Source: a virus. From it: a DNA stretch of 46,330 nt. The notes below the pieces were generated by a model. That model saw only the letters and a program-made list of their open reading frames with translations, made no database searches and was not told where the DNA came from. The DNA lies in the IMG/VR virus record IMGVR_UViG_3300006810_000082, positions 1-46,330 of that record, one strand, 5' to 3'. The translations under genes and the position numbers were made by a program. Shown here in pieces: positions 6,192 to 45,935 of this stretch. Position 1 is the first letter of the stretch. The number at the start of each line of letters is the position of its first letter.

Positions 6192-6905
6192 ATGATAGAT
6201 ACAGTAAGAAATACAGTCCTTGCTATACTTAATAAGAATAACTACGGATACCTTTCCCCATCAGACTTTAACCTGTATGCACAACAAGCACAGTTAGAGA
6301 TATTTGAGAATTGTTTTTACCAATACAATACACAGCTTAACTTAGAGAATGCGCGTAGGTCAGGAACTGAGTATGCTAATTTATCTAAAGGCATACTTGA
6401 GACTATTGATTTGTTTTCAAAGACAGCTCCGTTAGTTCAAGCTGCGACCAACACATACACAATGCCTTCAGATTATTACTTAATCAACAAGGTGCTTTGC
6501 TCAAGTGGTGGTTCATTTAAAGGAGAAGCTGAAAGGGTCAGTCAATCAAAGATTACAATGCTTAACGCTTCAGTTCTTACAGCACCTAGCGTTGATTTTC
6601 CTGCATACACGACTGAAGGTTCTGTAATGACAATTTATCCTAGTACATTTAATGGTGCTGCCGATATATCAGCTCAGTATGTTAGATACCCTGTAGCTCC
6701 TAAATGGACTTACAACACAGCTTTACAAGCACAAGGTCCTGTGTTTAATCCATCTGCAAGTGATTATCAAGACTTTGAGTTACCGCTTGACAACCTAAAT
6801 GATTTGGTTATAAAAATATGTCAGTACGCAGGTGTTGAGATACGTGAAGCGATGGTGGTGCAGTACGCACAGGGAGAAGAACAACAAAATAACTTACAAC
6901 AATAA
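6192..6905 (+). CDS. Head-tail connector / ring protein (crAss-like ring 1 type)
   Basis: A 237-residue protein. Its N-terminus (MIDTVRNTVLAILNKNNYGY, then LSPSDFNLYAQQAQLEIFEN) is a hallmark of a protein widespread in Bacteroidota podoviruses. There it precedes a second ring protein and the muzzle protein. Members form a ring below the portal that connects head and tail. The C-terminal region (DFELPLDNLNDLVIKICQYAGVEIRE) is helical. It overlaps the next gene by one base (TAATG), a sign of translational coupling. The assignment rests on recognition of the N-terminal pattern and on gene order; structural proof is not available from sequence alone. Confidence 0.7.
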   Translation: MIDTVRNTVLAILNKNNYGYLSPSDFNLYAQQAQLEIFENCFYQYNTQLNLENARRSGTEYANLSKGILETIDLFSKTAPLVQAATNTYTMPSDYYLINKVLCSSGGSFKGEAERVSQSKITMLNASVLTAPSVDFPAYTTEGSVMTIYPSTFNGAADISAQYVRYPVAPKWTYNTALQAQGPVFNPSASDYQDFELPLDNLNDLVIKICQYAGVEIREAMVVQYAQGEEQQNNLQQ

Positions 6906-7829: not shown

Positions 7830-10800
7830 ATGGCTAATAGTAAAAGAAATTTTATAGCGGGTAAGATGAACAAGTCACTTGATGAAAGGCTTGTACCTAA
7901 TGGTCAGTACATTGATGCAATGAACGTGCGACTTGGGTCTACCGAGGATTCAGAGATTGGTTCTGTAGAAAACTCAAAGGGTAATACTATTTTAACTTCA
8001 GTAAATCTAGGTATTTATGGTGGTGCCACCACGTATTTTCTTAGTTCCGAAGCTCGTTGCATTGGTGCTTTTGAGGATGGTGTAAATGAAACTATATATT
8101 GGTTTATACACGATAGTAATTCTCCATCGACATCTACAGGTAAGGCTGATTTGATAGTATCATTTAACACTAAAACATTTAACTTAAGATACCACGTAAA
8201 AAGTTTTAAGAACTCTGAAGACACAACTAATACTACCTTAAATTTTAATTCAGCACACCTTATATCTAATGTAAATAAAGTTGGTGATTTATTGTTTTTT
8301 ACAGACAACTACAATCCTCCTAGAAAAATTAATGTAAATGAGTCGTATGCTTACCCTACGAGTATTGATGGTGTCGATAATTTTAATTACAACGACATTC
8401 TTGTTATAGTTAAACCACCATCATATGCTCCGTCTGTTATAAATACAGTGACAGGTTCGTTAGATACATTTATGCAAGAAAGGTTTATATGTTTTTCTTA
8501 TAGGTATAAATATAAAAACAACGAGTACTCAGCCACATCTCAATTTACTAATCCAAGTTTTGTTCCTCAGCCGTTTTCATTATCTTCAGACAATTTTTTA
8601 AATGAGGGTATGGTCAACTCAAAGAATGGGGCCACTCTTACATATAACACAGGGGGTAGTGAGGTTGTTGAGATAGAAATATTATTTAAAGAATCGTCAT
8701 CTAATATTATAAAGGTAATTGAATCTATAGATGCTACTACACTACCAAACAATCAAGACCAACAATATACTTTTGAGGATAGTAAAATATTTACGATACT
8801 TTCAAGTGGTGAGATATTAAGACTTTACGACAATGTACCTTTATTAGCTAAAAGTCAGACCCTTATGGGAAATAGACTTATGTATGGTAATTATGTTGAT
8901 GGATATGATTTAAAGCGTGATGGTGTAAAAACTAAATTTGATTATTATATTGAGTCAATTAGTAAGTCGTTTGGGCTTACACCAATAACTACTTCTAATG
9001 TTCCTTTAAACGGGCAAGAATATATCTTAGCAAACGCAGAAGAGTCTAGTGGTAAAGTAGAAGTAACTCTTAGTGAAATAACAGAATTAAAAGCAGGAGG
9101 TAATCTTACACTTAGCTTTACAATTGAACACGATGATTGGGAGCCTTCAACTCCGAGTGTTACTATCCCCACAAGTATAAACCCTCCTACTACAGTTGCG
9201 TTTAATTATACTCTTTTACAAGACTTTAATAGCGTATCTGAGTTAGTTAATAGTATTGATTTTCAAGAGAAAATGGGTACGGCAAGTAATATTAAAACAG
9301 TAGCTCTTTCAGGAACAGGTTCTACTTTTACAGATATAATAAACGATTCATTATTAACTGAAATAGGTTCATACACTAAATTTCAAAGCGGTATAGCTAC
9401 GGCAGGAGAACCTATATTAGTTACTACAGCCACAGGTTCACCTGTTCTTAATCTATCTGTTATAACTATGGGTTATACTACAGATATTTCGGCTCCCTCA
9501 ACATCCAATACAGTTTACGAGCTTTTTAATTTAACAAACATTGATTTCTCGTATTCAGAAATAGGCAGCTCTTTAAGTTTGCATAGCAATAGAGGGTACG
9601 AAGTTGGTATTGTTTATATGGATGAGTTTAATAGAGCTTCAACAGCTTTAGTTAGTAATAATAATAATGTATATATATCGTGTGCTAATAGTATAAATAA
9701 AAATACTATTAAACTTACAATGCCTACATCTCAAATAGCTCCTGATTTTGCTAAAAGATTTAAGTTTGTAATAAAGCCTGATGGTGAAGATTACGAGACT
9801 ATATACTCTCAATTATACTTTGAGGAAGCGGGTACAAGTTTTACATATTTTAAATTAGAAGGAGAGAATATAGCAAAAGTTGAAGAAGGTGATAGATACA
9901 TTGTAAAAAGGTCAGCATCAGGCCCTTCAGATAGTTGCTTATACGCAACCGTTCTTGAAAAGGTTTCTTTAGCTGAAGGAGATATAATATCAACAGACTC
10001 TAATATAACCGTACCTGCAGGTACGTATATGAAAATACAACCTTCTAATTTTTCTACAAGCCTTGAGGAGAATAGTTATATAAATCCCGGTTCGCAAGAG
10101 TCACCATCTTCAGTTGACGCAGCGCCTACTTTTTTAAATTATAGAAACTTTGAAGATAGTATCACAAGTAATACGTTTAGTAATTACGCTATACCTCAAG
10201 GCTCTTCAATAGAAATGAATCTTGATTTATATAGGAATGCGTCTACCAACTTTACTCAATCTTGTGATTATCTTTACTTTAAATTTAATAGAACATTTAC
10301 AGCTTCAGATAACTATGATAATATTATTGATTGGTTTAATGGTGACAATATAGCTTCTACGTTTTCATCTGCAAATACTAGTAGCGAAATTTCTTTTGAT
10401 TACGATACGCAGGAACAAACAAATATTAATGTTTGGCGTGGTAACACTACGTCAGCATCTAATACCAAAGTAAATTTTGCTTGGTTTAAAAGTACTGACT
10501 CTGCTAATCTTAATGAAATAATATTTTTAATTAGAGGTTTTGATGCTTGCCCATCAAGTGGCTATAGTTCAAGTGGTAGAGCTAAGATAAAAGCATCTTT
10601 TAAGATTATATTATCTGACGGTACTGTTATATTTGAAACTGAACCATCAGAGTCTTTACCTGATGTTTGGTATGAAGGTCAGGACTCATATCCTGTATCT
10701 GCACTAGGTTTTCACGAATCTAATATTACAGGAGATACCAATCAAACCTCATCTGTTGATGGTATATTTAATTTGAATTTCGCTAATTGCTATTCATTTG

Positions 10801-17508: not shown

Positions 17509-20500
17509 ATGAACGAGCAAGCATTAAAGGATTCTTACGAATTATTTAAACAGAAAGGTTATACTAAATCTTTTGATGAATATGTAAATCTTATAAACAC
17601 AAACCCTAACGCTTTAAATGATTCGTATTCCTTATTTAAAGAACAAGGGTACGGAAAGTCTATAGAGGAATTTTCAACTCTTGTTGGTGTAAAAAAAAAA
17701 GACGAGTCCGTTTCTATTGTTCAAGAGGACGTTACGGAATCCATTACACCGGAAGTTCAGGAAGAAGTTATCTCATCGGATGCTTCGTATCAAAGAGATG
17801 ATTCTATAACTGACAATGATTATCTTGTTGGTCTTAGTAATGGTTCTATAAAAACCAATGAAGGTAGTGTAGCTACCATTACAGAGGTTATTGCTGCAGC
17901 TAAAGAACAAGGCTACCCTCAAGAGGAAATAGACTCCCTAATGGTTGCCTCATCCTCTGACCCTACTGATTCAATAAGCGTATCTGATGTGTCTGTTCAA
18001 GAGGATAAACCTAATTGGAAAAAACAAATAGATGAGTTTGGTGAGTCAGCTTCTATATGGAATGACCCTAGTGCTGCGGGGGTATCAACCGAAGAAATAC
18101 GTGAGTATTACTTATCAACACAACAACCGGAGTCTGTTCCAACAGACTCTACACTAACAGAGCAGGAAGAGATTATCCCATCTGATGTTACCGAGACAAT
18201 AATTCCTAAAAAAAGAAAAGGTGTAAGATTAAATTTTGATGAAGATGGCAATGTAGTCGGAGAATCAACTCACTTAATGAAAAGAGAATTTATACCTGAA
18301 GAGGGGTGGGTTGCCTTTCCATCTTTATTTCAAGATGAAGACGGAGCGTGGATTGATATGTCTAATAAGCCTGATGATGAGTGGCATTCTATTTATAAGG
18401 AAGCTAAATCAAGAGGTGAGGTCTATAATTTTGGCACAGACAAGCAGGCTGCTATTGATTTCGCTGACAAGGGCTCTTGGAAATCAAAAACTTTATCAAA
18501 TCAAGAATCTACGATTACAACTCCTACTGCAGATGTAGTAGAGGAGGCTGTCGTTGAGCAAGCTCCAATCCCCACAGAATTAGACCAACAAATATACCAA
18601 GGAATATACGGCAGGGCTATAGAGCAGGGAGGTACCCCTGTACCTACTATAGAACAGTGGATGAGCACAAGAGAGTCTTCTGCTAAAGATGATAAATATG
18701 GTTACGTGGATGCTGAGGCTGACGTTTTTAGAACAATAGCTAACATACCAAAGACCTTGGAGGCATCTTATGATAAATCATTCCCGGGGTTTTTAGCTAG
18801 AATAATTTCTACTAGCGGTGGTGTTAGTGGCCCTATATCGGGACCTTCATATACAGGTAAGGACGAGCCTTTAATTCCTATTTCTGACGAATACGCTACC
18901 GAACCTATAATAAATATTACAGATTATAAGGAAGGAGATACCAATGAATATGTAACCGATATACTTTCTACTGTTCTAGATATTTTCTCTATGCCTAATG
19001 TTGGTATAGGAGGTGCTCTAACCAAAGTACTACCTAAGTTGCCAATGCTAGGTGTAGCTAAGTACGCTACCGATACTTTAGTTAAACTAGGGCTTAAACC
19101 TTCGGTAGCCTCAAAAGTAATTAAAAAGCAGTTACCTAAAGCTCTTGAAACTATAGATAAAGGGGGTTCTACATTTGCTTTATTTGAAACATCAAAAGAT
19201 TTTCAACGCCAAGTTCAAGAGTTAGGTGGTATGAGTGAAGTTGATTTTACTCAATCACCTGAAGCATTTGCAAAAGGATATGGCCTTGGAGCAGGTTTAG
19301 GATTAATAGGTCAGCTTGGTAGACAAATCCCTAAACTTACTGCTGCTTTAAGAACAGAAGGTAGGGCTGCTGTTGCTGAAAAAGGAGTGTCACAAGCATT
19401 GATTGATAGGGGTTTATCGGACTCTAGGATAATAGGTACGTTAGGCGAAACTATAGGTTTAGGTGGAGAGGTAGCTACCTTTGGTCTCATTAACGCAACA
19501 ACTCCAACCCTTGAGAATCCTGAAGGAGAGTTAACTGCAGAGTCTTTTTCTGAGGGAATGAGCGAGGCGTTAAAGTATATCATAGGTTTTAGGGCTGTTG
19601 GTTTAGCGAGCCGAGTAGCTAAAGGTCAGACTGCATTTAACAAGCAATACTCAGAATTTAATAAGGCAGAGAAAGAGCAGGCTTTTTCTTTGTTTACCGA
19701 AATAAATAATAAGATTAAAAGCGGTGAGTTAACCGAGCAAAGTGCTAGCGAATATTTAAAAAATAAGATAGACGTAAAGATTACGCCTAAACAAATTAAA
19801 GAAAAAATTAAAAGTGGAGAGATAACTGAAGCTAATGCTGCAGAATATTTTTCAAAACAAGAAGTTAAATCTAGCTTACCTATAACCCTTATTGATAAGG
19901 TTCTTCAGGAAATATCAGGGATGAAGAGTAACCTTTCTAGAAAGGATGTGTTTAATAAAGTTTTCGAAATTGAAGCTCAAGCAAAAACTGATGGTACATA
20001 TAGAATCAATACTTACTCTAAGGATGGACTGCTATTAACTACCGCAAATGTTAAAGGACCTGCAGAGGTTAGTGGCTTTATAAATAAATTCAAAAAGGTT
20101 CAAGCTAATGAAATAGAGAAAGCTAATAATGGTCAAGGTAATTACCCTGTAAATAATAAAGTTTCTTACACGATTAACCCTGTACCTTTATTAGAATCTA
20201 AACAGACCACTACAACTGTAGATGGTGATGATATTACTACTACAACTAATATAGTTACAGAAGAATACGCCGCTCAAAAATTAATTGAGGAGGGCGTTCA
20301 GAACGCAACGCCTGAAGAGGTAAAACAAAAGCAACAAGAACTTTTAAAAGAACAAGCCAATGCCATTCAAGAGCCAAGCACAGAGACGGTGGATGTACAA
20401 GAACAAACCGGAGATAGCCAAACAGTGGGAGAGGGAGACACCGAAGTCAGCGAACTTACCACAGAGACTACACAAGAAGTTCAAGAATCTGATGTCGACA

Positions 20501-26777: not shown

Positions 26778-26810
26778 AAAAAAAAAGAGAGTCTGTTCGA
26801 ACAGACTCTC
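26778..26810 (-). terminator. Leftward intrinsic terminator at the convergence of the two modules
   Basis: The palindrome at 26790-26807 is extended by GAG/CTC to a 10-pair stem. Read on the minus strand it is followed by nine U residues (A run at 26778-26786 on the plus strand). It ends the leftward replication operon. In the plus direction there is no U tract, though the hairpin could slow polymerase there too. Confidence 0.8.
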
Positions 26811-36548: not shown

Positions 36549-36578
36549 AAAAAAAAAGAGTCTGTTCGAACAGACTCT
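36549..36578 (-). terminator. Leftward intrinsic terminator upstream of the replication promoter
   Basis: The palindrome at 36559-36576 with one more G/C and A/T pair on each side. On the minus strand it is followed by nine U (36557-36549). It ends the accessory operon just before the next promoter. Confidence 0.85.
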
Positions 36579-36701
36579 CTTAATATCTTTGATTGCTTTT
36601 GTCTATATATGAAACCTAGAAAAGGTGGTGGTCTAGACTATTAACCTTAAGCAAGCAACCCTTCAGTCCCCAAGACATCGGAGAGACCAAACTGACCACG
36701 C
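36577..36701 (-). other. Gene-free 125 bases after the amidotransferase fusion gene
   Basis: Lies between the stop of the fusion gene and the terminator hairpin. The only frame starting with ATG has 20 codons and is not convincing. The sequence has a higher GC content than its surroundings and a short palindrome (GGTCTAGACC). It could be a 3' untranslated region with a small RNA, but I cannot define a structure. Confidence 0.4.
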
Positions 36702-37631
36702 TTACGAATTTAATATAGCTTCCATATCGTCCCATAAACTAGGAGTGTATGTCTCTGCAGTTGGAGTCGAATAGAAGTTTCTATAGCTATGCTGAACGTA
36801 TGTCTTATGCATCTGAGTATCCTTTGTTATCGTCTTTGGATTGAAATACACCCAACAATTTATTATCCTACCTTTAACGTGGATAGGTACTTGCTTTCTA
36901 ACGTACCACTTTGGATGACCTTCTAGCATATCAAGTCTTGCTAGTGTATCGTCTGATACCTTGAACACATCAACCTGTACATTATAACCCACGCCTTTCT
37001 GCTCTACCATATATGGTAAGCCTTGAATAAGTAAAGGATACCGGTCTTTAGTCACACCACTACCAATAAACTTAGATGTTGTTAGGTAGCTATGGTAGTT
37101 GCTATAATCCTTCTTTAGCGTGCCATATACTGCAATGATATTCTCTTGCAGTACGTTAGCTTTAGAGTACCATATGCCATCTCTGTAATGCCAATCTCCT
37201 CTGTTATACATTTGGAATGAACGATTGCGTATATTCACTGTAACGAATCTACAATCGAACTGCTCTATCTCTTGCTTCCAAGTACGTCTTGGTCTAAGAC
37301 CTAGCTGATTTGCTAGAACCTTTGAGTCGCACATCTCTGCGTTTCCCAATCCTTTGATTGTTCCATTCATCATTAAGTACTCATCCTTCTGAACTCCACA
37401 TACGAACGGATGCGTGTTCTCTCTGTTGATTGCACCAACCGTAGCGTAACGGAAGTGAGCAATGAATGGTCTATCTGTGAGTAGAACTCCATAGTCTTTT
37501 GATTTGTGGTATGTTACCTCGTAGGTATCTAACCAAATAATTCCCAACCCGTGAGGATTGATTCTTGCTGATGTCTTTGCAATTTCTCTTGACATCATTT
37601 GCTCTTTCTGTTTGATAATAATTACACACAT
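36702..37631 (-). CDS. Glutamine amidotransferase (class II) fused to gamma-glutamylcyclotransferase
   Basis: A 309-residue protein beginning MCVIII at 37631. The Cys at position 2 is the N-terminal nucleophile of class II amidotransferases. It is supported by NPHGLG at 25-30, HFRYAT at 59-64, THPF at 73-76, MNGTI at 88-92 and D102. From about residue 165 follows an AIG2/GGCT domain: YGTLKK at 169-174, RYPLLIQGLPYM near 197-208, and the catalytic Glu in LDMLEGHP (E237). The frame is open upstream to 37712, but that stretch covers the promoter and a palindrome hairpin, so it is leader. Known biology: such pairs occur with amidoligases in peptide or metabolite modification systems, and an amidoligase lies at 41474-42430. 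Substrate unknown. Confidence 0.8.
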   Translation of the reverse strand: MCVIIIKQKEQMMSREIAKTSARINPHGLGIIWLDTYEVTYHKSKDYGVLLTDRPFIAHFRYATVGAINRENTHPFVCGVQKDEYLMMNGTIKGLGNAEMCDSKVLANQLGLRPRRTWKQEIEQFDCRFVTVNIRNRSFQMYNRGDWHYRDGIWYSKANVLQENIIAVYGTLKKDYSNYHSYLTTSKFIGSGVTKDRYPLLIQGLPYMVEQKGVGYNVQVDVFKVSDDTLARLDMLEGHPKWYVRKQVPIHVKGRIINCWVYFNPKTITKDTQMHKTYVQHSYRNFYSTPTAETYTPSLWDDMEAILNS

Positions 37632-37651
37632 AGTGATTGTGATTTGTGAGG

Positions 37652-37669
37652 AGTCTGTTGGAACAGACT
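37652..37669 (-). repeat. Palindrome copy in the leader of the amidotransferase fusion gene
   Basis: AGTCTGTTGGAACAGACT between the predicted transcription start (near 37692) and the ATG at 37631. The mRNA leader would fold a hairpin about 20 bases before the start codon. Confidence 0.85.
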
Positions 37670-37698
37670 GACCTCTGATTAATTGTATTTGATTTGTA

Positions 37699-37729
37699 CA
37701 AAAGTAATACAAAATTTAGACACTGCCAA
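37699..37729 (-). promoter_or_regulatory. Leftward Bacteroidota-type promoter of the amidotransferase fusion gene
   Basis: On the minus strand TTG (37729-37727), 20 bases, then TACTTTTG (37706-37699). The -33 surroundings (AAATTTGGCAGT) match those of the promoter at 39821-39851 (AAATTTGGTAGT), so both share an extended upstream element. Confidence 0.75.
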
Positions 37730-37978: not shown

Positions 37979-38257
37979 TTAGTTGTTTTGGTTTTTAATA
38001 AATTCTACTACTGCTTTGTAGGTGATGTTTATATCACATTGCTCAAGGGCATAGTACACAAAATCAAAATAATCTAATCGATTCTCTTGTCTACATTTCT
38101 GTACCACCGGCATAAGCCAATCCCAAGAACAATGATAATTTGATTCGTGATGTTTTTGGTAAATTTCTTTACCCATAAATTCTGCTATAAGGATATTACC
38201 CATGTCAATATCGTGTTGCTTACTGCTTTCTATTGCGTCTTTACTTCTTAAATCCAT
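37979..38257 (-). CDS. 92-residue conserved hypothetical protein
   Basis: Contains FMGKEIYQKHHESNYHCSWD followed by WLMPVVQKCRQE, a pattern I recognise from small phage proteins of Bacteroidota (Y-H-x-S-W-D-W-L-M-P-V-V). No function is known. It is predicted helical, ends FIKNQNN, and overlaps the upstream gene by 17 bases. Confidence 0.6.
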   Translation of the reverse strand: MDLRSKDAIESSKQHDIDMGNILIAEFMGKEIYQKHHESNYHCSWDWLMPVVQKCRQENRLDYFDFVYYALEQCDINITYKAVVEFIKNQNN

Positions 38258-38456
38258 TGTTGTCTTCTTTAATGTTAATGATTACCCACTCGTGTGAGCC
38301 TTCCTTCTTAAACGATTCAATCTCTTTCTCACTTTCTAGGTAGAAAAATATATCGTCATCATCATCCTCAATATCTCCTATCTTAAGAATCATATTGTCT
38401 TGGATGTCTCCGTTATCAAGCCACTTGATTGTAGCTACAAATCTCTTATTCGTCAT
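38241..38456 (-). CDS. 71-residue acidic hypothetical protein
   Basis: I choose the ATG at 38456 (MTNKRFVATIKWLDNG), which overlaps the stop of the upstream 57-residue gene (ATGACGAATAA). An ATG six bases earlier (38462, giving MEMTNK) is equally possible. The longer frame open to 38543 would run far into that upstream gene. The protein has strands (MILKIGDIEDDDDDIFFYLE) and an acidic run of five Asp. Function unknown. Confidence 0.55.
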   Translation of the reverse strand: MTNKRFVATIKWLDNGDIQDNMILKIGDIEDDDDDIFFYLESEKEIESFKKEGSHEWVIINIKEDNNGFKK

Positions 38457-38619
38457 CTCCATAGCTATTTTCCTCCATTGCTTGTTGTGTTTCTTGCATA
38501 ATCTCAACGTGCTTCTCATTGTCGGGATTGAACTCACGCTCACGCTGAGCGTTTGTGATTGCTACCCCCTGCATAAGACCTTCTTGCATTGAGATAAATA
38601 ACTCTTTCATCTGTCCCAT
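38446..38619 (-). CDS. 57-residue helical protein directly downstream of a ribozyme
   Basis: The frame MGQMKELFISMQEGLMQGVA continues ITNAQREREFNPDNEKHVE and ends ENSYGDDE. It is Gln/Glu/Met-rich and helical. The ATG lies 23 bases after the predicted self-cleavage site of the ribozyme at 38637-38700, so the processed mRNA would start with 5'-OH UUAACC and a short A-rich leader. It overlaps the next gene. The length is below most gene-finder limits, but context supports it. Confidence 0.65.
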   Translation of the reverse strand: MGQMKELFISMQEGLMQGVAITNAQREREFNPDNEKHVEIMQETQQAMEENSYGDDE

Positions 38620-38636
38620 AATAGTTTAGTTTTAAT

Positions 38637-38700
38637 GGTTAAGACTAAAGTCTGTTCGAACAGACTCTAGTTTCGAGCAATAAGCTCTCATCAGTTAACC
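38637..38700 (-). ncRNA. Hammerhead ribozyme, type I (copy A)
   Basis: Read on the minus strand: stem I GGTTAA; core CTGATGA (38694-38688); stem II GAGC, loop TTATT, GCTC; core GAAA (38674-38671); stem III starting A-C-T-A-G and closed by the palindrome (38666-38649), returning T-T-A-G-T; then C17 at 38643; then stem I return TTAACC (38642-38637). All invariant core bases are present, A15.1-U16.1 pairs, and cleavage is predicted between 38643 and 38642. The stop codon of the upstream gene is the TAA inside stem I. Confidence 0.9.
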
Positions 38701-38895
38701 TTTTCTTATCAAATCTTCCATCTCGTTGATGGCACCCACGTCTAGGAAGTCATATAGGAAGTTGTCTATTGGGACAACGTAATTCGTTGTCCCACATACA
38801 TACTCTATTGACTCCACGTTTAAGCCAAAACCATCGTCCGTGTAGCTTACGATAACCTCGTAGTCTACACCCTCTTTAATTGTCTTCTGAGTCAT
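38695..38895 (-). CDS. 66-residue hypothetical protein ending in ribozyme A
   Basis: MTQKTIKEGVDYEVIVSYTD is followed by a strand-rich acidic protein (GFGLNVESIEYVCG, then NYVVPIDNFLYDFL). The last codon GGT and the stop TAA are part of stem I of the ribozyme, so the C-terminal Gly is ribozyme-encoded. Two other ribozyme-linked genes end the same way. Function unknown. Confidence 0.6.
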   Translation of the reverse strand: MTQKTIKEGVDYEVIVSYTDDGFGLNVESIEYVCGTTNYVVPIDNFLYDFLDVGAINEMEDLIRKG

Positions 38896-39205
38896 AGCCT
38901 AAACTTTCTTCCATATCCTTTGTATCAGCACCCCACTCCTTGACGCACTTAACAACCTCATCGTCTAACGAGAACACACCATCGTATCCATCTAACACAT
39001 TGCCCGTAAACTCAAGCCCACCTTCTCCGTAGTAGTCATCACCACCACTCTCGGTGTCGTATATCTCAAACCAACCTCTCTCTCTACTCTTATCCCAACC
39101 AACGTGGTATTGCATTGTTTTTTTCTCACGCTCTATCGTAGGAGACATTGAACTCTCCCAACCTACGTATCTTACTTTCTGAAAACTCTTTTTTAACTCG
39201 CTCAT
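38876..39205 (-). CDS. 109-residue hypothetical protein
   Basis: I take the ATG at 39205 (MSELKKSFQKVRYVGWESSM), two bases after the stop of the upstream gene. The frame is open to an ATG at 39244, but that would overlap it by 37 bases. A Trp/Gly/Asp-rich centre (HVGWDKSRERGWFEIYDTES, GGDDYYGEGGLEFTG) looks like a small beta fold. The C-terminus is acidic. It overlaps the next gene by 20 bases. Confidence 0.6.
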   Translation of the reverse strand: MSELKKSFQKVRYVGWESSMSPTIEREKKTMQYHVGWDKSRERGWFEIYDTESGGDDYYGEGGLEFTGNVLDGYDGVFSLDDEVVKCVKEWGADTKDMEESLGYDSEDN

Positions 39206-39207
39206 AA

Positions 39208-39420
39208 TTATCTTGTTTTTAATATACTTGTTGAACTTTTCCATTGTGTGTGACCTTCACTGCGTCTCCAACCTATACGTCTGTACTTGTCGGCATCAAG
39301 ACCTCTCTGTAATTGTTTCCACACCTTTGTTGATTGTGGTCTTATGCAGTGCTTTACTGCACCGATAACCTCGTGGCTCTCGCCTACTCTCTCGTAATAA
39401 AATGTTGTTCTAATACTCAT
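39208..39420 (-). CDS. 70-residue basic hypothetical protein
   Basis: MSIRTTFYYERVGESHEVIG, then VKHCIRPQSTKVWKQLQRG and a basic tail (YRRIGWRRSEGHTQWK). It has many Arg and Trp residues, so RNA or DNA binding is conceivable but unproven. It follows a palindrome terminator-type hairpin and has the AAACCAAAACACAATG leader. Confidence 0.5.
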   Translation of the reverse strand: MSIRTTFYYERVGESHEVIGAVKHCIRPQSTKVWKQLQRGLDADKYRRIGWRRSEGHTQWKSSTSILKTR

Positions 39421-39435
39421 TGTGTTTTGGTTTTT

Positions 39436-39465
39436 AAAACGGAGTCTGTTCGAACAGACTCCGTT
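39436..39465 (-). terminator. Palindrome hairpin with short U tract
   Basis: The palindrome at 39443-39460 is extended on both sides (ACGG ... CCGT) to 13-14 pairs. On the minus strand it is followed by four U and then A-rich sequence. This is one of the most stable copies. It probably terminates or attenuates transcription between the 93- and 70-residue genes. Confidence 0.7.
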
Positions 39466-39473
39466 AGTTAATA

Positions 39474-39755
39474 TTAGTTATCTAATGATATAGTTATTGG
39501 TGAAAATTTAATATCATCTACGTCAGGAGAACATTTACTCAAGTCTCTTATCTCCTCGTACTCTTTAACCCAAAAGTTATCAAGTAACCATTCAATAATC
39601 TCTTGTTGAATGTCATCAGCCATTCCCTCTTTACATCTGTTAACGAAATTTTTCGTTACTCTTTTCGGAGATGCGTAACTGATAGTAACATCAAACTTCT
39701 CATTGATTTTGTACTTCTTGTTTTTCAAAGTGTACTGACCTCTTAATTGTAGCAT
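39474..39755 (-). CDS. 93-residue hypothetical protein
   Basis: MLQLRGQYTLKNKKYKINEK is followed by strands (FDVTISYASPKRV), an amphipathic helix (GMADDIQQEIIEWLLDNFW) and an acidic tail. It is the first gene after the promoter at 39821-39851, with a palindrome hairpin in its leader. No family recognised. Confidence 0.6.
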   Translation of the reverse strand: MLQLRGQYTLKNKKYKINEKFDVTISYASPKRVTKNFVNRCKEGMADDIQQEIIEWLLDNFWVKEYEEIRDLSKCSPDVDDIKFSPITISLDN

Positions 39756-39773
39756 AACTCTTTGGTTTTAATT

Positions 39774-39791
39774 AGTCTGTTCGAACAGACT
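39774..39791 (-). repeat. Palindrome copy in the leader of the 93-residue gene
   Basis: Perfect AGTCTGTTCGAACAGACT between the predicted transcription start (near 39814) and the ATG at 39755. The placement repeats that at 37652-37669: promoter, hairpin, then start codon. Confidence 0.85.
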
Positions 39792-39820
39792 TGGTTAGTA
39801 TTTATTGTACTTAATTTATA

Positions 39821-39851
39821 CAAAGATATGTATAATAATTCGAACTACCAA
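39821..39851 (-). promoter_or_regulatory. Leftward Bacteroidota-type promoter
   Basis: On the minus strand TTG (39851-39849), 20 bases, then TATCTTTG (39828-39821), a perfect consensus. It shares AAATTTGGYAGT around the -33 box with the promoter at 37699-37729. Confidence 0.75.
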
Positions 39852-39891
39852 ATTTATTTTTAACTTTCTGATTATTAGATAGTTAACATTA

Positions 39892-39932
39892 CATTGCCCC
39901 AAATGGGCATTTTTAGCCCCAAATGGGCAATG
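39892..39932. repeat. Two GCCCCAAATGGGCA units forming a larger inverted repeat
   Basis: GCCCCAAATGGGCA occurs at 39896-39909 and 39916-39929. Each unit is nearly self-complementary (GCCC/GGGC), and CATTGCCC with GGGCAATG encloses both. GC-rich in an AT-rich gap between ribozyme B and the promoter. It could be an operator pair or a hairpin in the cleaved RNA. Confidence 0.65.
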
Positions 39933-39942
39933 AGATACATTT

Positions 39943-40006
39943 GGTTAAGACACAAGTCTGTTTGAACAGACTTATGTTTCGACTATCAAAGTCTCGTCAG
40001 TTAACC
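39943..40006 (-). ncRNA. Hammerhead ribozyme, type I (copy B)
   Basis: Minus strand: GGTTAA; core CTGACGA (position 7 is C, which the family allows); stem II GACT, loop TTGAT, AGTC; GAAA; stem III A-C-A-T then the palindrome variant (39972-39955) and G-T-G-T, 13 pairs in all; C17 at 39949; return TTAACC. Cleavage is predicted between 39949 and 39948. Stem II and stem III differ from the other copies by compensating changes, which supports selection for the fold. Confidence 0.9.
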
Positions 40007-40381
40007 TTTAACCTTCCACTCGTACTTCACTTTGAATCCATGCTTGTAGTGATGGTGTAAAGCCTTCAATTCATTTAGGAATGTCGTGTAGCTATTCCTC
40101 GCAATGAACTCTCCGTTTAAATATATCGCTCGAGTCAGTTTGTATCTAAACTCCCACCAATACTCATCATCTGTATCTCTACCGAATCTGAATCCAAGTA
40201 CGTCAGAGCGCTCTCCACCATCGCCTTCGCGATAGTATGCGCTATACAAGACACCATCTGTTCCATTATAGTGATGCCCACAATATGGCGCAGTCTCGCC
40301 CTCATAGTGGTTTAACTTACCACGTTTCTCATCTATGCGATAACACGCATCTATTACTAAGTTAATCAATCTCTTTCTCAT
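40001..40381 (-). CDS. 126-residue hypothetical protein ending in ribozyme B
   Basis: Starts MRKRLINLVIDACYRIDEKR. It has a Gly/Tyr/Asp-rich strand region (HYNGTDGVLYSAYYREGDGG, VLGFRFGRDTDDEYWWEFRY), then a helix with a His run (ALHHHYKHGF) and the end VKG. The last Gly codon and stop belong to stem I of ribozyme B. Function unknown. The start overlaps the 51-residue gene. Confidence 0.6.
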   Translation of the reverse strand: MRKRLINLVIDACYRIDEKRGKLNHYEGETAPYCGHHYNGTDGVLYSAYYREGDGGERSDVLGFRFGRDTDDEYWWEFRYKLTRAIYLNGEFIARNSYTTFLNELKALHHHYKHGFKVKYEWKVKG

Positions 40382-40517
40382 CTGTCTGTGTTATTAAGTT
40401 ATACAAATCCTTTGGTTTAATCTCGTTCCACTTACCGACTCCATTTAATCGGTAGAACTTTCCATCCTCGTCAAGTCTTACCAACTTGCCTTCCATTACA
40501 AATGCTTTTGGTTTCAT
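40362..40517 (-). CDS. 51-residue hypothetical protein
   Basis: Frame MKPKAFVMEGKLVRLDEDGK, then FYRLNGVGKWNEIKPKD and the end TDEKEID. A small strand pair with a helix is likely. The ATG has the AAACAATG leader, and the end overlaps the start of the 126-residue gene by 20 bases, in the style of the operon. Too short for many gene finders. Confidence 0.6.
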   Translation of the reverse strand: MKPKAFVMEGKLVRLDEDGKFYRLNGVGKWNEIKPKDLYNLITQTDEKEID

Positions 40518-40529
40518 TGTTTCTAAGTT

Positions 40530-40754
40530 TTAGTTACATCTATCTAGATAATCATCGTGTATGCCTAAGTCAACCTCTTGCTTATGCTCGCACTCAGTCT
40601 CCCATTCTTGTTCTTCGTCAACCTCTGTGACTATCATTCCCTGCTCTTTAGCTTTCTTCTCCAATGCAGGAAGACTAGCTATATACAAATCTTCGCTCTC
40701 GAATGTAGCGACTAACTCTGCGTGAGAATTGCTCTCAAAATATACTTTAATCAT
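40530..40754 (-). CDS. 74-residue conserved hypothetical protein
   Basis: The pattern MIKVYFESNSHAELVATFES, then PALEKKAKEQGMIVTEVDEE is one I recognise as a small conserved phage protein (VYFES-x-SHAELVATF). The C-terminus is acidic. Function unknown. It overlaps the upstream membrane-protein gene by 8 bases (ATGATTAA). Confidence 0.65.
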   Translation of the reverse strand: MIKVYFESNSHAELVATFESEDLYIASLPALEKKAKEQGMIVTEVDEEQEWETECEHKQEVDLGIHDDYLDRCN

Positions 40755-40911
40755 AGTTTCTATGGTTTAACTCGTTTGCAATCAGTAAAATAATCGGTAA
40801 ATCCATTAGCGTGATTAGAAGTTTAATCTCTAGGCAATTGGACATCGTGTACACTGCAATCGTTAGAACGCTAGCTAGCACACCTATCATTGTTAAGGTA
40901 AATTTGCTCAT
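40747..40911 (-). CDS. 54-residue membrane protein with two transmembrane helices
   Basis: MSKFTLTMIGVLASVLTIAV forms the first hydrophobic helix; a short polar turn (YTMSNCLEIK) leads to the second (LLITLMDLPIILLIANEL), and the end HRNYD is polar. Two-helix small membrane proteins in phages can be holin- or superinfection-type proteins. Its place among early genes argues against a lysis role. No family named. Confidence 0.6.
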   Translation of the reverse strand: MSKFTLTMIGVLASVLTIAVYTMSNCLEIKLLITLMDLPIILLIANELNHRNYD

Positions 40912-40920
40912 AATTCCTGC

Positions 40921-41091
40921 TTATTTAGTTAGTGTTTCATTGTAGTACTCAGCACAAGCCTTCGTTAGCTTTAATGCTTCTGCATCTGTAATGTCATACA
41001 CCATCTTAAAGATGGTAGCTATCTTTAACGCACTGCTCATCCCCGAGTCAATGCATCTAGCGTATGTAATTCTGTGTTTTGTGGTAATCAT
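40921..41091 (-). CDS. 56-residue helical protein directly downstream of ribozyme C
   Basis: Frame MITTKHRITYARCIDSGMSS, then ALKIATIFKMVYDITDAEAL and the end NETLTK. Probably all-helical. The ATG is 19 bases after the predicted cleavage site of ribozyme C, so the processed mRNA would begin UUAACCAAACAAACAGAUU directly before AUG. Function unknown. Confidence 0.6.
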   Translation of the reverse strand: MITTKHRITYARCIDSGMSSALKIATIFKMVYDITDAEALKLTKACAEYYNETLTK

Positions 41092-41104
41092 AATCTGTTT
41101 GTTT

Positions 41105-41168
41105 GGTTAAGACGCAAGTCTGTTGGAACAGACTCACGTTTCGACTATTCAAGTCTCATCAGTTAACC
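41105..41168 (-). ncRNA. Hammerhead ribozyme, type I (copy C)
   Basis: Minus strand: GGTTAA; CTGATGA; stem II GACT, loop TGAAT, AGTC; GAAA; stem III A-C-G-T-G, palindrome variant (41134-41117), T-G-C-G-T, with two G-U pairs; C17 at 41111; TTAACC (41110-41105). Every core base fits, and cleavage is predicted between 41111 and 41110. It lies between the 66- and 56-residue genes and fills the gap almost entirely. Confidence 0.92.
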
Positions 41169-41363
41169 TAGCTGAAGAATAACCTCATCGTCAACGAAAT
41201 GAAATTCCTCGTCTCCATTTCTGTCCTCCTCAGAGTACCACTTGTTAACAATAGTACACCCTTCAAGAGAATTAGCGACAATAAACTGCTCGTATCCGTA
41301 CTCAGCACCAATTTCTAGTGATGCAATTTGCTTTCCTTCTGCGTTTTGAATAATTACTTTCAT
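41163..41363 (-). CDS. 66-residue hypothetical protein between two ribozymes
   Basis: MKVIIQNAEGKQIASLEIGA, then a strand-rich acidic protein (CTIVNKWYSEEDRNGDEEFH) ending ILQLG. The final Gly and stop are part of stem I of ribozyme C. Type III ribozyme E lies just upstream, so this gene's mRNA would be released at both ends by self-cleavage. Function unknown. Confidence 0.6.
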   Translation of the reverse strand: MKVIIQNAEGKQIASLEIGAEYGYEQFIVANSLEGCTIVNKWYSEEDRNGDEEFHFVDDEVILQLG

Positions 41364-41389
41364 AATCTGTTTGGTATTAAATTAAAGTT

Positions 41390-41440
41390 CCCGTTTCGAC
41401 CTTTTGGTCTCATCAGCACAAGCACTCACTTGTGGACGGA
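41390..41440 (-). ncRNA. Hammerhead ribozyme, type III (copy E)
   Basis: Minus strand: stem III TCCGT (41440-41436); C17 at 41435; stem I CACAAG, loop TGAGTG, CTTGTG; core CTGATGA (41416-41410); stem II GACC, loop AAAA, GGTC; core GAAA (41397-41394); stem III return ACGGG. All core positions fit. Cleavage is predicted between 41435 and 41434. Here the ribozyme body stays on the downstream RNA. It is unrelated in its stems to the type I copies. Confidence 0.93.
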
Positions 41441-41446
41441 TAGAGG

Positions 41447-41464
41447 AGTCTGTTGGAACAGACT
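41447..41464 (-). repeat. Palindrome hairpin just upstream of the type III ribozyme
   Basis: AGTCTGTTGGAACAGACT with GG/CC flanks, between the amidoligase stop and ribozyme E. After cleavage at 41435 the amidoligase mRNA would end about 12 bases beyond this hairpin, which gives the same end product as in the type I copies. Confidence 0.85.
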
Positions 41465-41473
41465 CCCCAATCA

Positions 41474-42430
41474 TCATCTTAGAGTCTCTGCTCTAAGGCT
41501 TCTAGTGTACAGATGGCTCAGTCTCCCGTATTGGTCAACGAATGGCTGCACTGCGTGGTTTATCTTTCGAGTCATAAGCATCTTTCTGAAGTGCTTTGAT
41601 AACTCCATAACCTCAGACACCTTGTCATCATTGTTATTGTACATCATCATAAGGATTGGCTTTAGCTTACTCAAAAGACCTCTGTGTGTGCCATTCGGCT
41701 TGTTCACTGCGTAGTTAACAATCTCATACATCAATCGGTAGCGTAGATTCAAATCAGTCACAGACTTGATTCTGCTAGGCAATCTGAACTCCACTCGATT
41801 AGAGTCAATACGACAAACTTGGTATTTATCATGACCACTTAAGCCTTCCCAATCGCACTCATCTGCATTCATAAAGATGTTAGCTTGACACCATCTTCTC
41901 TTTAATCTGAAACGATACAGAGCGTATACGATTCCACTGAATGGTCTAAGTGCGTCAGCTAGCTCAGAGCCACTCATACCTTTTACTGCTAGGTTTATGT
42001 GACCTCCACAATCTATATTCGATGGTGAAAATTGGTCATCAACAATGTGCTTAACCTCACTGAACATAGACAATACCTTGTTTCTCCATACAGAACGACC
42101 TATAAGTGGTAACACGTTTGTGATGGCTTCAACACCACAAGAACCATCTGTCTCAAAGTGCGAGAATAACGGATATTCTTTAACTGCATTCCTATGGAAT
42201 TGATTCTTTTCAACCTCAAAGCCAATAGTAAACTTCGCCTCAATCTCACCATCATCAGTTACATTGGTAGTTAAATTCAATTCATTGTGTGGTAAGTGCT
42301 TAATGTCATGTTGGAATGGAGTCTTATCAAAAAATCTGTAAGGTAAGCCATTGCGCTTTGCCCATCCATAGGATAACATACGACCTCTGTCATCGTTTCC
42401 CTCTGTAGTGTAAGTAATCTGTGCATTCAT
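41474..42430 (-). CDS. Amidoligase (COOH-NH2 ligase, glutamine-synthetase-like fold)
   Basis: A 318-residue protein with the motif order of the amidoligase_2 type: IGFEVEK at 69-75, DGSCGVEAITNVLPL at 95-109, CGGHINL at 141-147, then a central helix region and ICRIDSNRVEFRLPS-like residues near 205-222 (read as VCRIDSNRVEFRLPS). These Glu, His and Arg positions bind ATP and metal in the family. The enzyme joins a carboxylate to an amine, such as adding amino acids to a protein or metabolite. A fused amidotransferase/GGCT gene in the same strand region (36702-37631) is the expected partner type. Target unknown. Confidence 0.8.
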   Translation of the reverse strand: MNAQITYTTEGNDDRGRMLSYGWAKRNGLPYRFFDKTPFQHDIKHLPHNELNLTTNVTDDGEIEAKFTIGFEVEKNQFHRNAVKEYPLFSHFETDGSCGVEAITNVLPLIGRSVWRNKVLSMFSEVKHIVDDQFSPSNIDCGGHINLAVKGMSGSELADALRPFSGIVYALYRFRLKRRWCQANIFMNADECDWEGLSGHDKYQVCRIDSNRVEFRLPSRIKSVTDLNLRYRLMYEIVNYAVNKPNGTHRGLLSKLKPILMMMYNNNDDKVSEVMELSKHFRKMLMTRKINHAVQPFVDQYGRLSHLYTRSLRAETLR

Positions 42431-42459
42431 AGTGTTTGGTTTATTTGGTTAATGTTAGA

Positions 42460-42505
42460 GCCCATATGCTCGGCGAAAAGCATTACAACCACTTGGTCTA
42501 TGGGC
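42460..42505 (-). repeat. Inverted repeat GCCCATA / TATGGGC next to the decayed ribozyme
   Basis: Seven-base arms at 42460-42466 and 42499-42505 with a 32-base loop, followed on the minus strand by TTAACC (42452-42447), the usual stem I return sequence. It occupies the place where ribozyme D should have its cleavage arm. Confidence 0.6.
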
Positions 42506-42560
42506 AAAAGTCTGTTCGAACAGACTCACGTTTCGGATATTCAATCCTCATCAGTTAACC
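42503..42560 (-). ncRNA. Decayed hammerhead ribozyme (copy D)
   Basis: The 5' half is intact on the minus strand: GGTTAA, CTGATGA, stem II GGAT, loop TGAAT, ATCC, GAAA, C-G-T-G and the perfect palindrome (42526-42509). The other side does not fit: U16.1 is replaced by C (42504), stem III flanks mispair, and TTAACC does not follow directly. Cleavage is not expected by the family rules. It may be a relic, or the arm at 42447-42452 may be used in a rearranged fold. Confidence 0.6.
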
Positions 42561-43139
42561 TTACGCATTCAATTGCTCTTTAGCTTTAGCTAGTAACATC
42601 TCTAGTGCTTCGATTGACTTAGCATTAACTCCTTCAATCTTACCATCAGATAGTAAACGAAGACTAGCGCCTTTGTCAGACTCAAGTGCTTCAGCCTTAG
42701 CACTGAATGTCATCAGTGTAGTTGATGACTCACTACCTTCAGACTCCTCGTCAGACTCAGCGCCACCATTCTTAACGAATTTAAGACAACCTCTTACACT
42801 ACGATTCTCAGTAGAGTCTTTGTACTCAGAGATTTTATTAGACTGCGCTTCTCTAATCTTTCCTAAGTTAATCATCTCAGAGAAGAATGCTTTCTTGTAT
42901 CCCCAAATATCTCTAAAGTCTTCGGTAGTCATTACAATACCTGCATACTCCATAGCTTGTTTACCCTCTGCAGACTTCCACCATTGGTAAGTAATGTGCA
43001 TCTTAAGAGATAGCTTAACTTGGACGTCGAATGTATTCTTAACTGCAGTCTGAACATCTAAATTCATTGCCATTGCACCATTGAATTCTTGGACATTGTT
43101 TTCTAGTAATTCTTCGAAATTTCTGTTAATTTGACTCAT
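42561..43139 (-). CDS. 192-residue hypothetical protein, first gene of the early operon
   Basis: MSQINRNFEELLENNVQEFN opens a protein with a helical N-terminal half (MHITYQWWKSAEGKQAMEYA, FFSEMINLGKIREAQ) and a Ser/Glu-rich linker (ESDEESEGSESSTTL). A C-terminal helix (KSIEALEMLLAKAKEQ) follows. It is the gene nearest the divergent control region, so it is probably transcribed first after infection. Unlike the other ribozyme-linked genes, its stop precedes the ribozyme sequence. Function unknown. Confidence 0.6.
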   Translation of the reverse strand: MSQINRNFEELLENNVQEFNGAMAMNLDVQTAVKNTFDVQVKLSLKMHITYQWWKSAEGKQAMEYAGIVMTTEDFRDIWGYKKAFFSEMINLGKIREAQSNKISEYKDSTENRSVRGCLKFVKNGGAESDEESEGSESSTTLMTFSAKAEALESDKGASLRLLSDGKIEGVNAKSIEALEMLLAKAKEQLNA

Positions 43140-43413
43140 AATCGTTTGGTTTTGAGCATCTTAGCTCGTTATGGTGGAAGGATATCTCCCACTCGCTCTG
43201 CTAAATTAAGTATAAATTTTGTATAAAACTAATTATACATAAAGAAATGTTTAAAAAATGTACATTCAGTTTAAGATGTCAGTAAATGCTAGGAATAACG
43301 GCAGGCATATTGTGAGCAGTTTGTTTATGGTGTTTTGGTGTAGGGAATGGATAACCTCCATTGTGAGCATATGCTACAAATGGATGTTCACTCTGTGAGT
43401 CTAGACTGATTGC

Positions 43414-43431
43414 AGTCTGTTGGAACAGACT
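43414..43431. repeat. Palindrome copy in the divergent region
   Basis: AGTCTGTTGGAACAGACT in non-coding sequence with no U tract on either side and no hammerhead core nearby. As it is not at a gene end, a DNA-level role such as protein binding is as likely as an RNA one. Confidence 0.8.
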
Positions 43432-43563
43432 ATCTGTAATGCAGTGAATACGTCAAGCCTAATGACAGCAGGAGATACAGAGCGATGACAACAGCGATGC
43501 AGTAGGTTAACTACCACAGGCACAGGCAGTTAGGTAGTGCTATGCAAAAGGCTAAAAAATCGG

Positions 43564-44327: not shown

Positions 44328-45935
44328 ATGAATCAATCAGGTTACACTCCAAAGGAGTTGCATTTCTCAGACGAAGGTAGAACTAAGTTGTTTAATGGTC
44401 TAGAGAAAATCACTAACGCAGTACAAAGCACACTTGGACCTCAAGGGCATACAGTGCTTATCGAATCACAAGAACATTTATCGGGAATGACGGTTACTAA
44501 GGATGGAGTCACGGTGGCTAAATCTATTAGCTTGCTTGACCCTGTGGAGAATCTTGCAGTCAGAATTGTAAAGGAGGCTGCGGAGAAGACTGCTGTATCT
44601 GCGGGTGATGGAACCACAACGGCTATCGTGTTGTCTAACGCCTTGGTTCGAAATGGAGACGAGCATATAAAGGACGGGTTGAATAAGACCGCTGTCTTTC
44701 GTGAGATGGTTAAGGGTACAGAAGATATTGTGAAGAGCCTTAAGAAGATGAGTAAGCCTGTTACTGATAAGACGTTGGCTAGTGTAGCAACCATATCAGC
44801 TAACAACGACCCATTTATAGGCGGTGTGATAGCAGATGTCTACAAAGAGGTAGGTAAGGATGGTATTGTTACCGTTGAACGCTCACAGACCCCTGATACT
44901 TACTTTGAGACTACAAAAGGAATAAAGGTAGATAGAGGGTATTCATCTAACTTGTTTGTGAATAATCATAAGAAGGACGAGTGTGTCTTTGAGGATGTTC
45001 GTATATTGGTTAGTGATGCTGAGATAAGTAATATACTACAGATTGAGAATGTGTTAAAGCCAATTATACAGGAAGGGAGTAAGCTGCTTATCATCGCACC
45101 TTGTTCGACTAACGTGATTAATACGTTATCGGCTAACGTGATGAAGAATGGTTTGAAGGTGTGTTGCATTCAGCCACCTAACTTTGGCTACAAGCAGCAC
45201 GAGTTAATGAATGACATTGCTCTTTCGGTTGGTGCTACTTACTACAGTGAGAAGACGGGTGATGATTTGAGTTTAATTATGCCAAATGATTTAGGTAAAG
45301 CTAAAAAGGTTATAGTTAGCAGAGCGTCTACGATTATTGTGAAGGATGAGGTTGTTGTTTCGCAGGACGATATTGACAAGAGAGTTGAGCAGTTGTATTC
45401 GGCACAGCTTTTATCTAAGACAAAGGAGGAGAAGGAATTTATTCAATCAAGGATAGCATCTCTTACCGGTGGTGTTGGAGTGATATACGTAGGCGGTCAG
45501 ACTGAGTTAGAGCATAAAGAGCTGTATGACAGAGTTGACGATGCTGTATGTGCAGTGCGTTCAGCTACGCTCGAGGGTATACTACCGGGTGGTGGCTTAG
45601 CTCTTGAGAACATCTCAAGGTTTATGACTATAAGTGACAAGTGGTCTGATGAGAAGAAGGTTGCTTACAAGATACTTAAGCAGTCATTGCTTGCACCTAT
45701 AAATACTATACTGTCAAATGCAGGGCTGAGATATGATGACCTGTATAATGATGGGACGCCAAGAGGTTTCGGGTATGACGTAAAGAATGATAAGAGAGGG
45801 AGATTGATGACAATGGGTGTTATTGACCCGATGAAGGTTACAAAGAGCGCACTTCAAAATGCTGTGTCAGTAGCTGTCACTCTTCTAAGTACTAACGCTA
45901 TTGTAACGATGGCACGAAGTTATGAGACAAAGTAA
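44328..45935 (+). CDS. groEL: Phage-encoded GroEL-type chaperonin
   Basis: A 535-residue group I chaperonin subunit, close to the usual length of about 545. Seen: TKDG with D59 (E. coli D52), GDGTTTA at 93-99, the hinge/apical region with RGYSSNLFVN, and DDAV with D405 (E. coli D398) followed by ILPGGGLALEN. ATPase residues are therefore kept. The C-terminus ends MARSYETK and lacks the Gly-Gly-Met tail. The apical domain is the most diverged part. No groES was found in the window, so it may use the host co-chaperonin or work without one. It has its own promoter and is followed directly (TAATG) by a tiny gene. A role in folding capsid or the giant virion proteins is inference. Confidence 0.92.
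   Translation: MNQSGYTPKELHFSDEGRTKLFNGLEKITNAVQSTLGPQGHTVLIESQEHLSGMTVTKDGVTVAKSISLLDPVENLAVRIVKEAAEKTAVSAGDGTTTAIVLSNALVRNGDEHIKDGLNKTAVFREMVKGTEDIVKSLKKMSKPVTDKTLASVATISANNDPFIGGVIADVYKEVGKDGIVTVERSQTPDTYFETTKGIKVDRGYSSNLFVNNHKKDECVFEDVRILVSDAEISNILQIENVLKPIIQEGSKLLIIAPCSTNVINTLSANVMKNGLKVCCIQPPNFGYKQHELMNDIALSVGATYYSEKTGDDLSLIMPNDLGKAKKVIVSRASTIIVKDEVVVSQDDIDKRVEQLYSAQLLSKTKEEKEFIQSRIASLTGGVGVIYVGGQTELEHKELYDRVDDAVCAVRSATLEGILPGGGLALENISRFMTISDKWSDEKKVAYKILKQSLLAPINTILSNAGLRYDDLYNDGTPRGFGYDVKNDKRGRLMTMGVIDPMKVTKSALQNAVSVAVTLLSTNAIVTMARSYETK

Follow-up and report, generated by a model that had tools for sequence, protein, structure and literature searches.

Does the hammerhead-like sequence between two genes of a phage operon act as a ribozyme, and if so, what would the phage gain from cutting its own message there? 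We followed this question in one IMG/VR virus record of 46,330 bases, classed as linear and analyzed over its whole length (the window), in which early-type genes run leftward. Its primase has relatives in Flavobacterium, Polaribacter, Cellulophaga, Maribacter and Bacteroides phages, and because of these a Bacteroidota host is likely. The sequence in question (41390-41440, minus strand) lies between an upstream gene for a 318-aa protein (g2, 41474-42430, minus strand) and a downstream gene for a 66-aa protein (g3, 41163-41363, minus strand). The first-pass annotation had proposed a compact type III hammerhead here, and its coordinates proved right to the base, with all parts found on the minus strand. 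The stem III 5′ strand UCCG (41440-41437) is followed by U16.1 and C17 (41436-41435), with the predicted cleavage site between 41435 and 41434, then by stem-loop I, CACAAG-UGAGUG-CUUGUG (41434-41417), the core CUGAUGA (41416-41410), stem-loop II, GACC-AAAA-GGUC (41409-41398), and finally GAAA (41397-41394) with the stem III 3′ strand CGGG (41393-41390). This order, in which stem III is the open helix, is the type III permutation. The core elements C3UGANGA9, G12AA14 and A15.1-U16.1 are all present, as are the three helices and a UH cleavage site, here GUC. Stem III is short, with three Watson-Crick pairs and one G-U. When the strand is folded in isolation, CCGUC pairs otherwise at minimum energy, and the active fold thus differs from the predicted optimum.

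On sequence and predicted fold features the element fits a type III hammerhead, though it stays below the Rfam cut-off. With RF00008 (Hammerhead_3) it scored 18.9 bits against a gathering cut-off of 48.5 and thus is not a member by the Rfam rule; the Rfam alignment omits stem I, the stems here being shorter than those of the family. The window copies share core and permutations with RF00008 and RF00163 (Hammerhead_1), but their stems are compact and none reaches the gathering score; at gathering scores, Rfam matched neither the window nor any of ten relatives rich in ribozymes. A structural descriptor found this type III copy on the minus strand, together with three intact hammerheads of type I (core starts 41162, 40000 and 38694), and gave no hammerhead match in 100 shuffled windows. 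A type III family model assigned 86.2 bits (E 8.7e-22) to 41382-41446, a circular score, since the 24 sequences used for training include the window; the relatives are independent.

The same place was then compared in related phages. Eight loci were retrieved by the 318-aa g2 protein alone, with no ribozyme criterion, and one of them is truncated inside the gene. A type III hammerhead stands directly behind the g2 homologue in 7/7 usable loci, at protein identities from 95% to 41%. The core conservation at homologous phage gaps that the first-pass annotation had named as a check was borne out, the core being intact in all seven of these relatives that have the gap. MW202828, a g2 relative of 43% identity, gave no hammerhead with either the type I or the type III model. 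Homologues of g2 also precede a type III copy in more records, found via the ribozyme pattern, and the genes downstream vary. These further copies came from pattern scans, which fix parts of the core by construction.

In an alignment of 24 type III sequences (23 distinct), 96.0% of the cells in the 14 stem pairs were paired as standard, and 64 pair cells were doubly compensated, compared with at most 8 doubly changed cells in slid controls. Eleven of the 14 pairs had changed on both sides, including all six of stem I, which was paired to 100% in the 24 sequences, and three of the four in stem II; covariation backs stem III as well. Loops I and II, which would make a tertiary contact in a hammerhead, are narrowly conserved, with TGTGTG or TGAGTG dominating in loop I and AAAA in loop II, the latter partly fixed by the search pattern. 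The type III model found a strong copy in 21/21 records searched, most of them training records. For comparison, an alignment of 20 type I copies was 99.7% paired and had 71 doubly changed cells.

The type III copy does not stand alone. On the minus strand, a hammerhead cluster at 38638-42562 holds four intact copies and a broken one. Three of the intact copies are type I hammerheads in which a palindrome forms stem III: 41106-41170 (88.1 bits), 39944-40008 (86.0 bits) and 38638-38702 (85.9 bits). Their best Rfam match is RF03152 (RAGATH-1-hammerhead; 31.6, 30.1 and 24.1 bits), below its cut-off of 56.3 and with the extra 5′ helix of that family poorly matched. The fourth type I, at 42496-42562, is damaged (57.6 bits, broken pairs): only its 5′ half is left, the cleavage site and stem I 3′ strand having been displaced by another element. 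According to the first-pass annotation, the type III copy did not arise by copying the type I elements, and we come to the same view. With the type III model, the type I copies go unrecognized (12.8 bits, E 0.27), and a type I model search of the window did not return 41390-41440 among its matches. As the models do not cross-match, 41390-41440 is of a lineage distinct from the type I elements and is not a copy of them. Among 149 type I copies with a GGUUAA stem, the upstream stop codon usually lies inside or touches the ribozyme (at +3 in 48, +7 in 18 and -2 in 18), and the next AUG mostly follows 12-20 nt behind it.

An exchange of such elements can be seen one gap upstream, between g1 (42561-43139) and g2. 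In the nearest relative, L033, this gap holds an intact type I hammerhead, while in L034 and L035 a type III takes its place, between orthologous g1 (44% identity in L034) and g2 (85%). In the window the gap holds a type I whose second half is replaced behind the palindrome, and this copy was broken by recombination there. Furthermore, L033 is without the unit made of g3 and its type I ribozyme, and its type III runs straight into the next gene. From the type exchange and the missing unit it follows that genes and ribozymes behave as exchangeable units; from the loss of an intact type I before g2 it follows that hammerhead cleavage is not indispensable at every gap. That the gap behind g2 is under selection for self-cleavage, as proposed earlier from the two ribozyme lineages, gains support from the seven intact cores, the 11/14 doubly changed pairs and, as a strengthening argument, the type exchange before the 318-aa gene.

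What displaced the type I half is an element predicted to form a three-way junction (42455-42507, minus strand), fused to the remaining half at the palindrome. Further copies lie in L036 (7627-7679, plus strand) and L324 (4978-5030, minus strand). The three copies come from two phage groups, and each lies between genes of an operon that bears hammerheads, shortly upstream of a start codon. They share an invariant GACC-AAGU-GGUU hairpin and a GUA joint, with six doubly changed pairs. Rfam had no match for this RNA, and a search of 48 whole records and another 100 loci gave no further copy above noise; six genome matches to its pattern were rejected by a pairing filter. It is a candidate for a new processing or self-cleaving RNA. 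One could go further and regard the operon gaps as interchangeable sockets for self-cleaving RNA, in which hammerhead types swap, recombination at the palindrome swaps halves and 42455-42507 would be an undescribed self-cleaving RNA, a generalization that we find rather doubtful.

Directly upstream of the type III ribozyme, a palindrome hairpin spans 41445-41466 (minus strand), with AGTCTGTTGGAACAGACT at 41447-41464, where the first-pass annotation had located it. The accompanying proposal was that the upstream RNA would end near a hairpin as in the type I cases, and a hairpin before the predicted cut turned out to be general. Among 144 distinct compact type III copies, the 45 nt up to the cleavage site had a median folding energy of -16.4 kcal/mol, compared with -5.3 kcal/mol for random stretches of the same loci, and fell below -12 kcal/mol in 73% of the copies versus 6% of control stretches. 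In the window this hairpin is the palindrome; in other phages unrelated sequences form it. Type I copies have such a hairpin in their own stem III, so that either type would leave a hairpin at the new 3′ end of the upstream RNA.

The palindrome itself is not confined to the ribozymes. As AGTCTGTTnnAACAGACT it occurs at 16 sites in the window, from 2239 to 43431, and at 15 in the relative G002. Three other relatives (G010, G012 and G014) carry only GTCCGTTnnAACGGAC, 13-16 times each, and in G005 one site combines one arm of AGTCTGTTnnAACAGACT with the other arm of GTCCGTTnnAACGGAC. Such a concerted change throughout a genome suggests a trans-acting binder. At 26787-26810, between convergent gene blocks near 26.8 kb, and at 36555-36581, the palindrome has flanking A and T runs and resembles a bidirectional terminator.

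From the observed sequence, covarying structure, place, type exchange and hairpin we infer cleavage and an effect on expression: very probably, 41390-41440 is a functional, selected type III hammerhead that splits the polycistronic RNA of a leftward phage operon. The ribozyme would cut co-transcriptionally between 41435 and 41434. The upstream message, with the 318-aa gene as its last, would then have a 3′ end made up of the palindrome hairpin and some 10 nt, which would resemble one made by a terminator, without RNA polymerase being stopped; a scan of the minus strand from 38000 to 43500 found no U-tailed terminator. The downstream message would begin with a 5′-OH, and the ribozyme core would remain on it as a folded leader in front of the 66-aa gene. 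RiboJ-type insulators, which come from the satellite tobacco ringspot virus hammerhead, likewise keep a type III core as a folded 5′ leader downstream; unlike these, the window ribozyme is natural, sits between operon genes and has an upstream hairpin for the other product. The neighboring type I ribozymes may do the same job with the palindrome serving as stem III, and their cutting could also depend on the ribosome clearing the stop codon. In this way the RNA of each gene would have separate ends, and possibly a separate lifetime, without transcription being halted.

Other explanations have to be weighed against transcript splitting. The Rfam score, far under the cut-off, might be taken as a sign of chance or convergent resemblance, which we consider extremely improbable. 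The likeness is not due to chance, because shuffling produced 0/100 matches, 64 doubly compensated cells are spread over 24 relatives and all seven protein-found relatives keep the element at its place. It also seems unlikely that cleavage was lost and that the structure now acts as an mRNA-stability or anti-read-through element, with the hammerhead shape as an inherited scaffold. Such a role would agree with the conservation of the hairpin alone, with palindromes at many sites that have no ribozyme, and with an isolated fold that does not favor stem III. However, the unpaired catalytic bases are kept in the protein-found relatives while the stem pairs change, and a scaffold would not need G5, G8, G12, A13, A14 and the UH cleavage site.

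One might also regard the ribozymes as part of selfish repeats that spread along with the palindrome and serve no purpose for the phage, given that the window has 16 copies of the palindrome, that units of gene and ribozyme are gained and lost between relatives, and that a chimera has formed at the palindrome. We hold this to be very unlikely, since there is no palindrome in the type III ribozyme, which follows the same gene from relative to relative and in other phages stands behind unrelated hairpins, and since the ribozymes fit precisely between stop codons and start codons.

Transcript splitting as such has been discussed before. Perreault et al. (2011; PMC3088659) described clustered type I, II or III hammerheads in prophages that flank single genes or short blocks, demonstrated cleavage for three arrays, and proposed that cutting of long phage RNAs yields mRNAs the length of an operon or a gene. 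The window agrees with these clusters in having several hammerheads that flank genes on one phage strand, and since splitting by clustered phage hammerheads was already proposed in 2011, this kind of system is known. In contrast to that work, however, the elements here are on free phage contigs, and the predicted type III cut is preceded by a hairpin; type I and type III replace each other at an orthologous gap, and the type I copies use as stem III a palindrome that recurs throughout the genome. New are the module of hairpin plus ribozyme, the type exchange and a coupling within the core. The role of bacterial and phage hammerheads has been called an open question (PMC6155905), and the conserved place, the type exchange at one gap and the pre-cut hairpin make the splitting idea directly testable. 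Isolated Flavobacterium phages with both hammerhead types help in this: the cultured elemoviruses NC_055852-NC_055854 each have, in their leftward region, one type III candidate (33.7 bits) and one type I candidate (52.0 or 41.6 bits); in NC_055852 the candidate cores are at 19112 (type III) and 17341 (type I), both on the minus strand. A near-identity search of annotated phages gave no match, and short-query searches led to these phages for type I only; none of the candidates is annotated in the three records, and the Baltic phage paper does not mention ribozymes.

The coupling joins base 17 at the cleavage site to the 10.1-11.1 pair. Among type III copies in viral contigs, 65/70 with C17 have G-C at 10.1-11.1, and 62/74 with A17 or U17 have U-U or A-A (Fisher p 3e-22, calculated over related sequences). 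In a tree built from the other columns, 17 branches change both positions and 26 change one, the tree being rough because the sequences are short. No other column is as informative, and type I copies show coupling in the same direction. U10.1-U11.1 itself was already known (PMC3088659); we found no published report of the coupling in the hammerhead literature examined. It makes a clear prediction about the catalytic core. In L324, type I copies that have U-U at 10.1-11.1 together with a GUA site (6608-6657 and 7936-7997, minus strand) share an operon with a neighboring copy that has G-C and GUC.

As for the neighboring genes, the 318-aa protein had no PHROG match and no credible Pfam or PDB match, its AlphaFold model was too poor for use (mean pLDDT 46.9), and a likeness to amidoligases is not supported. 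A scan of bacterial genomes with this protein gave no relative. Elsewhere, 44328-45935 (plus strand) encodes a GroEL-like phage chaperonin (PHROG 5725, E 9e-133), and groEL is also present in the elemoviruses. The gene at 36702-37712 (minus strand) joins a glutamine amidotransferase-like part to a gamma-glutamyl cyclotransferase domain; a palindrome lies within its start region, where the other arm sequence is present in a relative.
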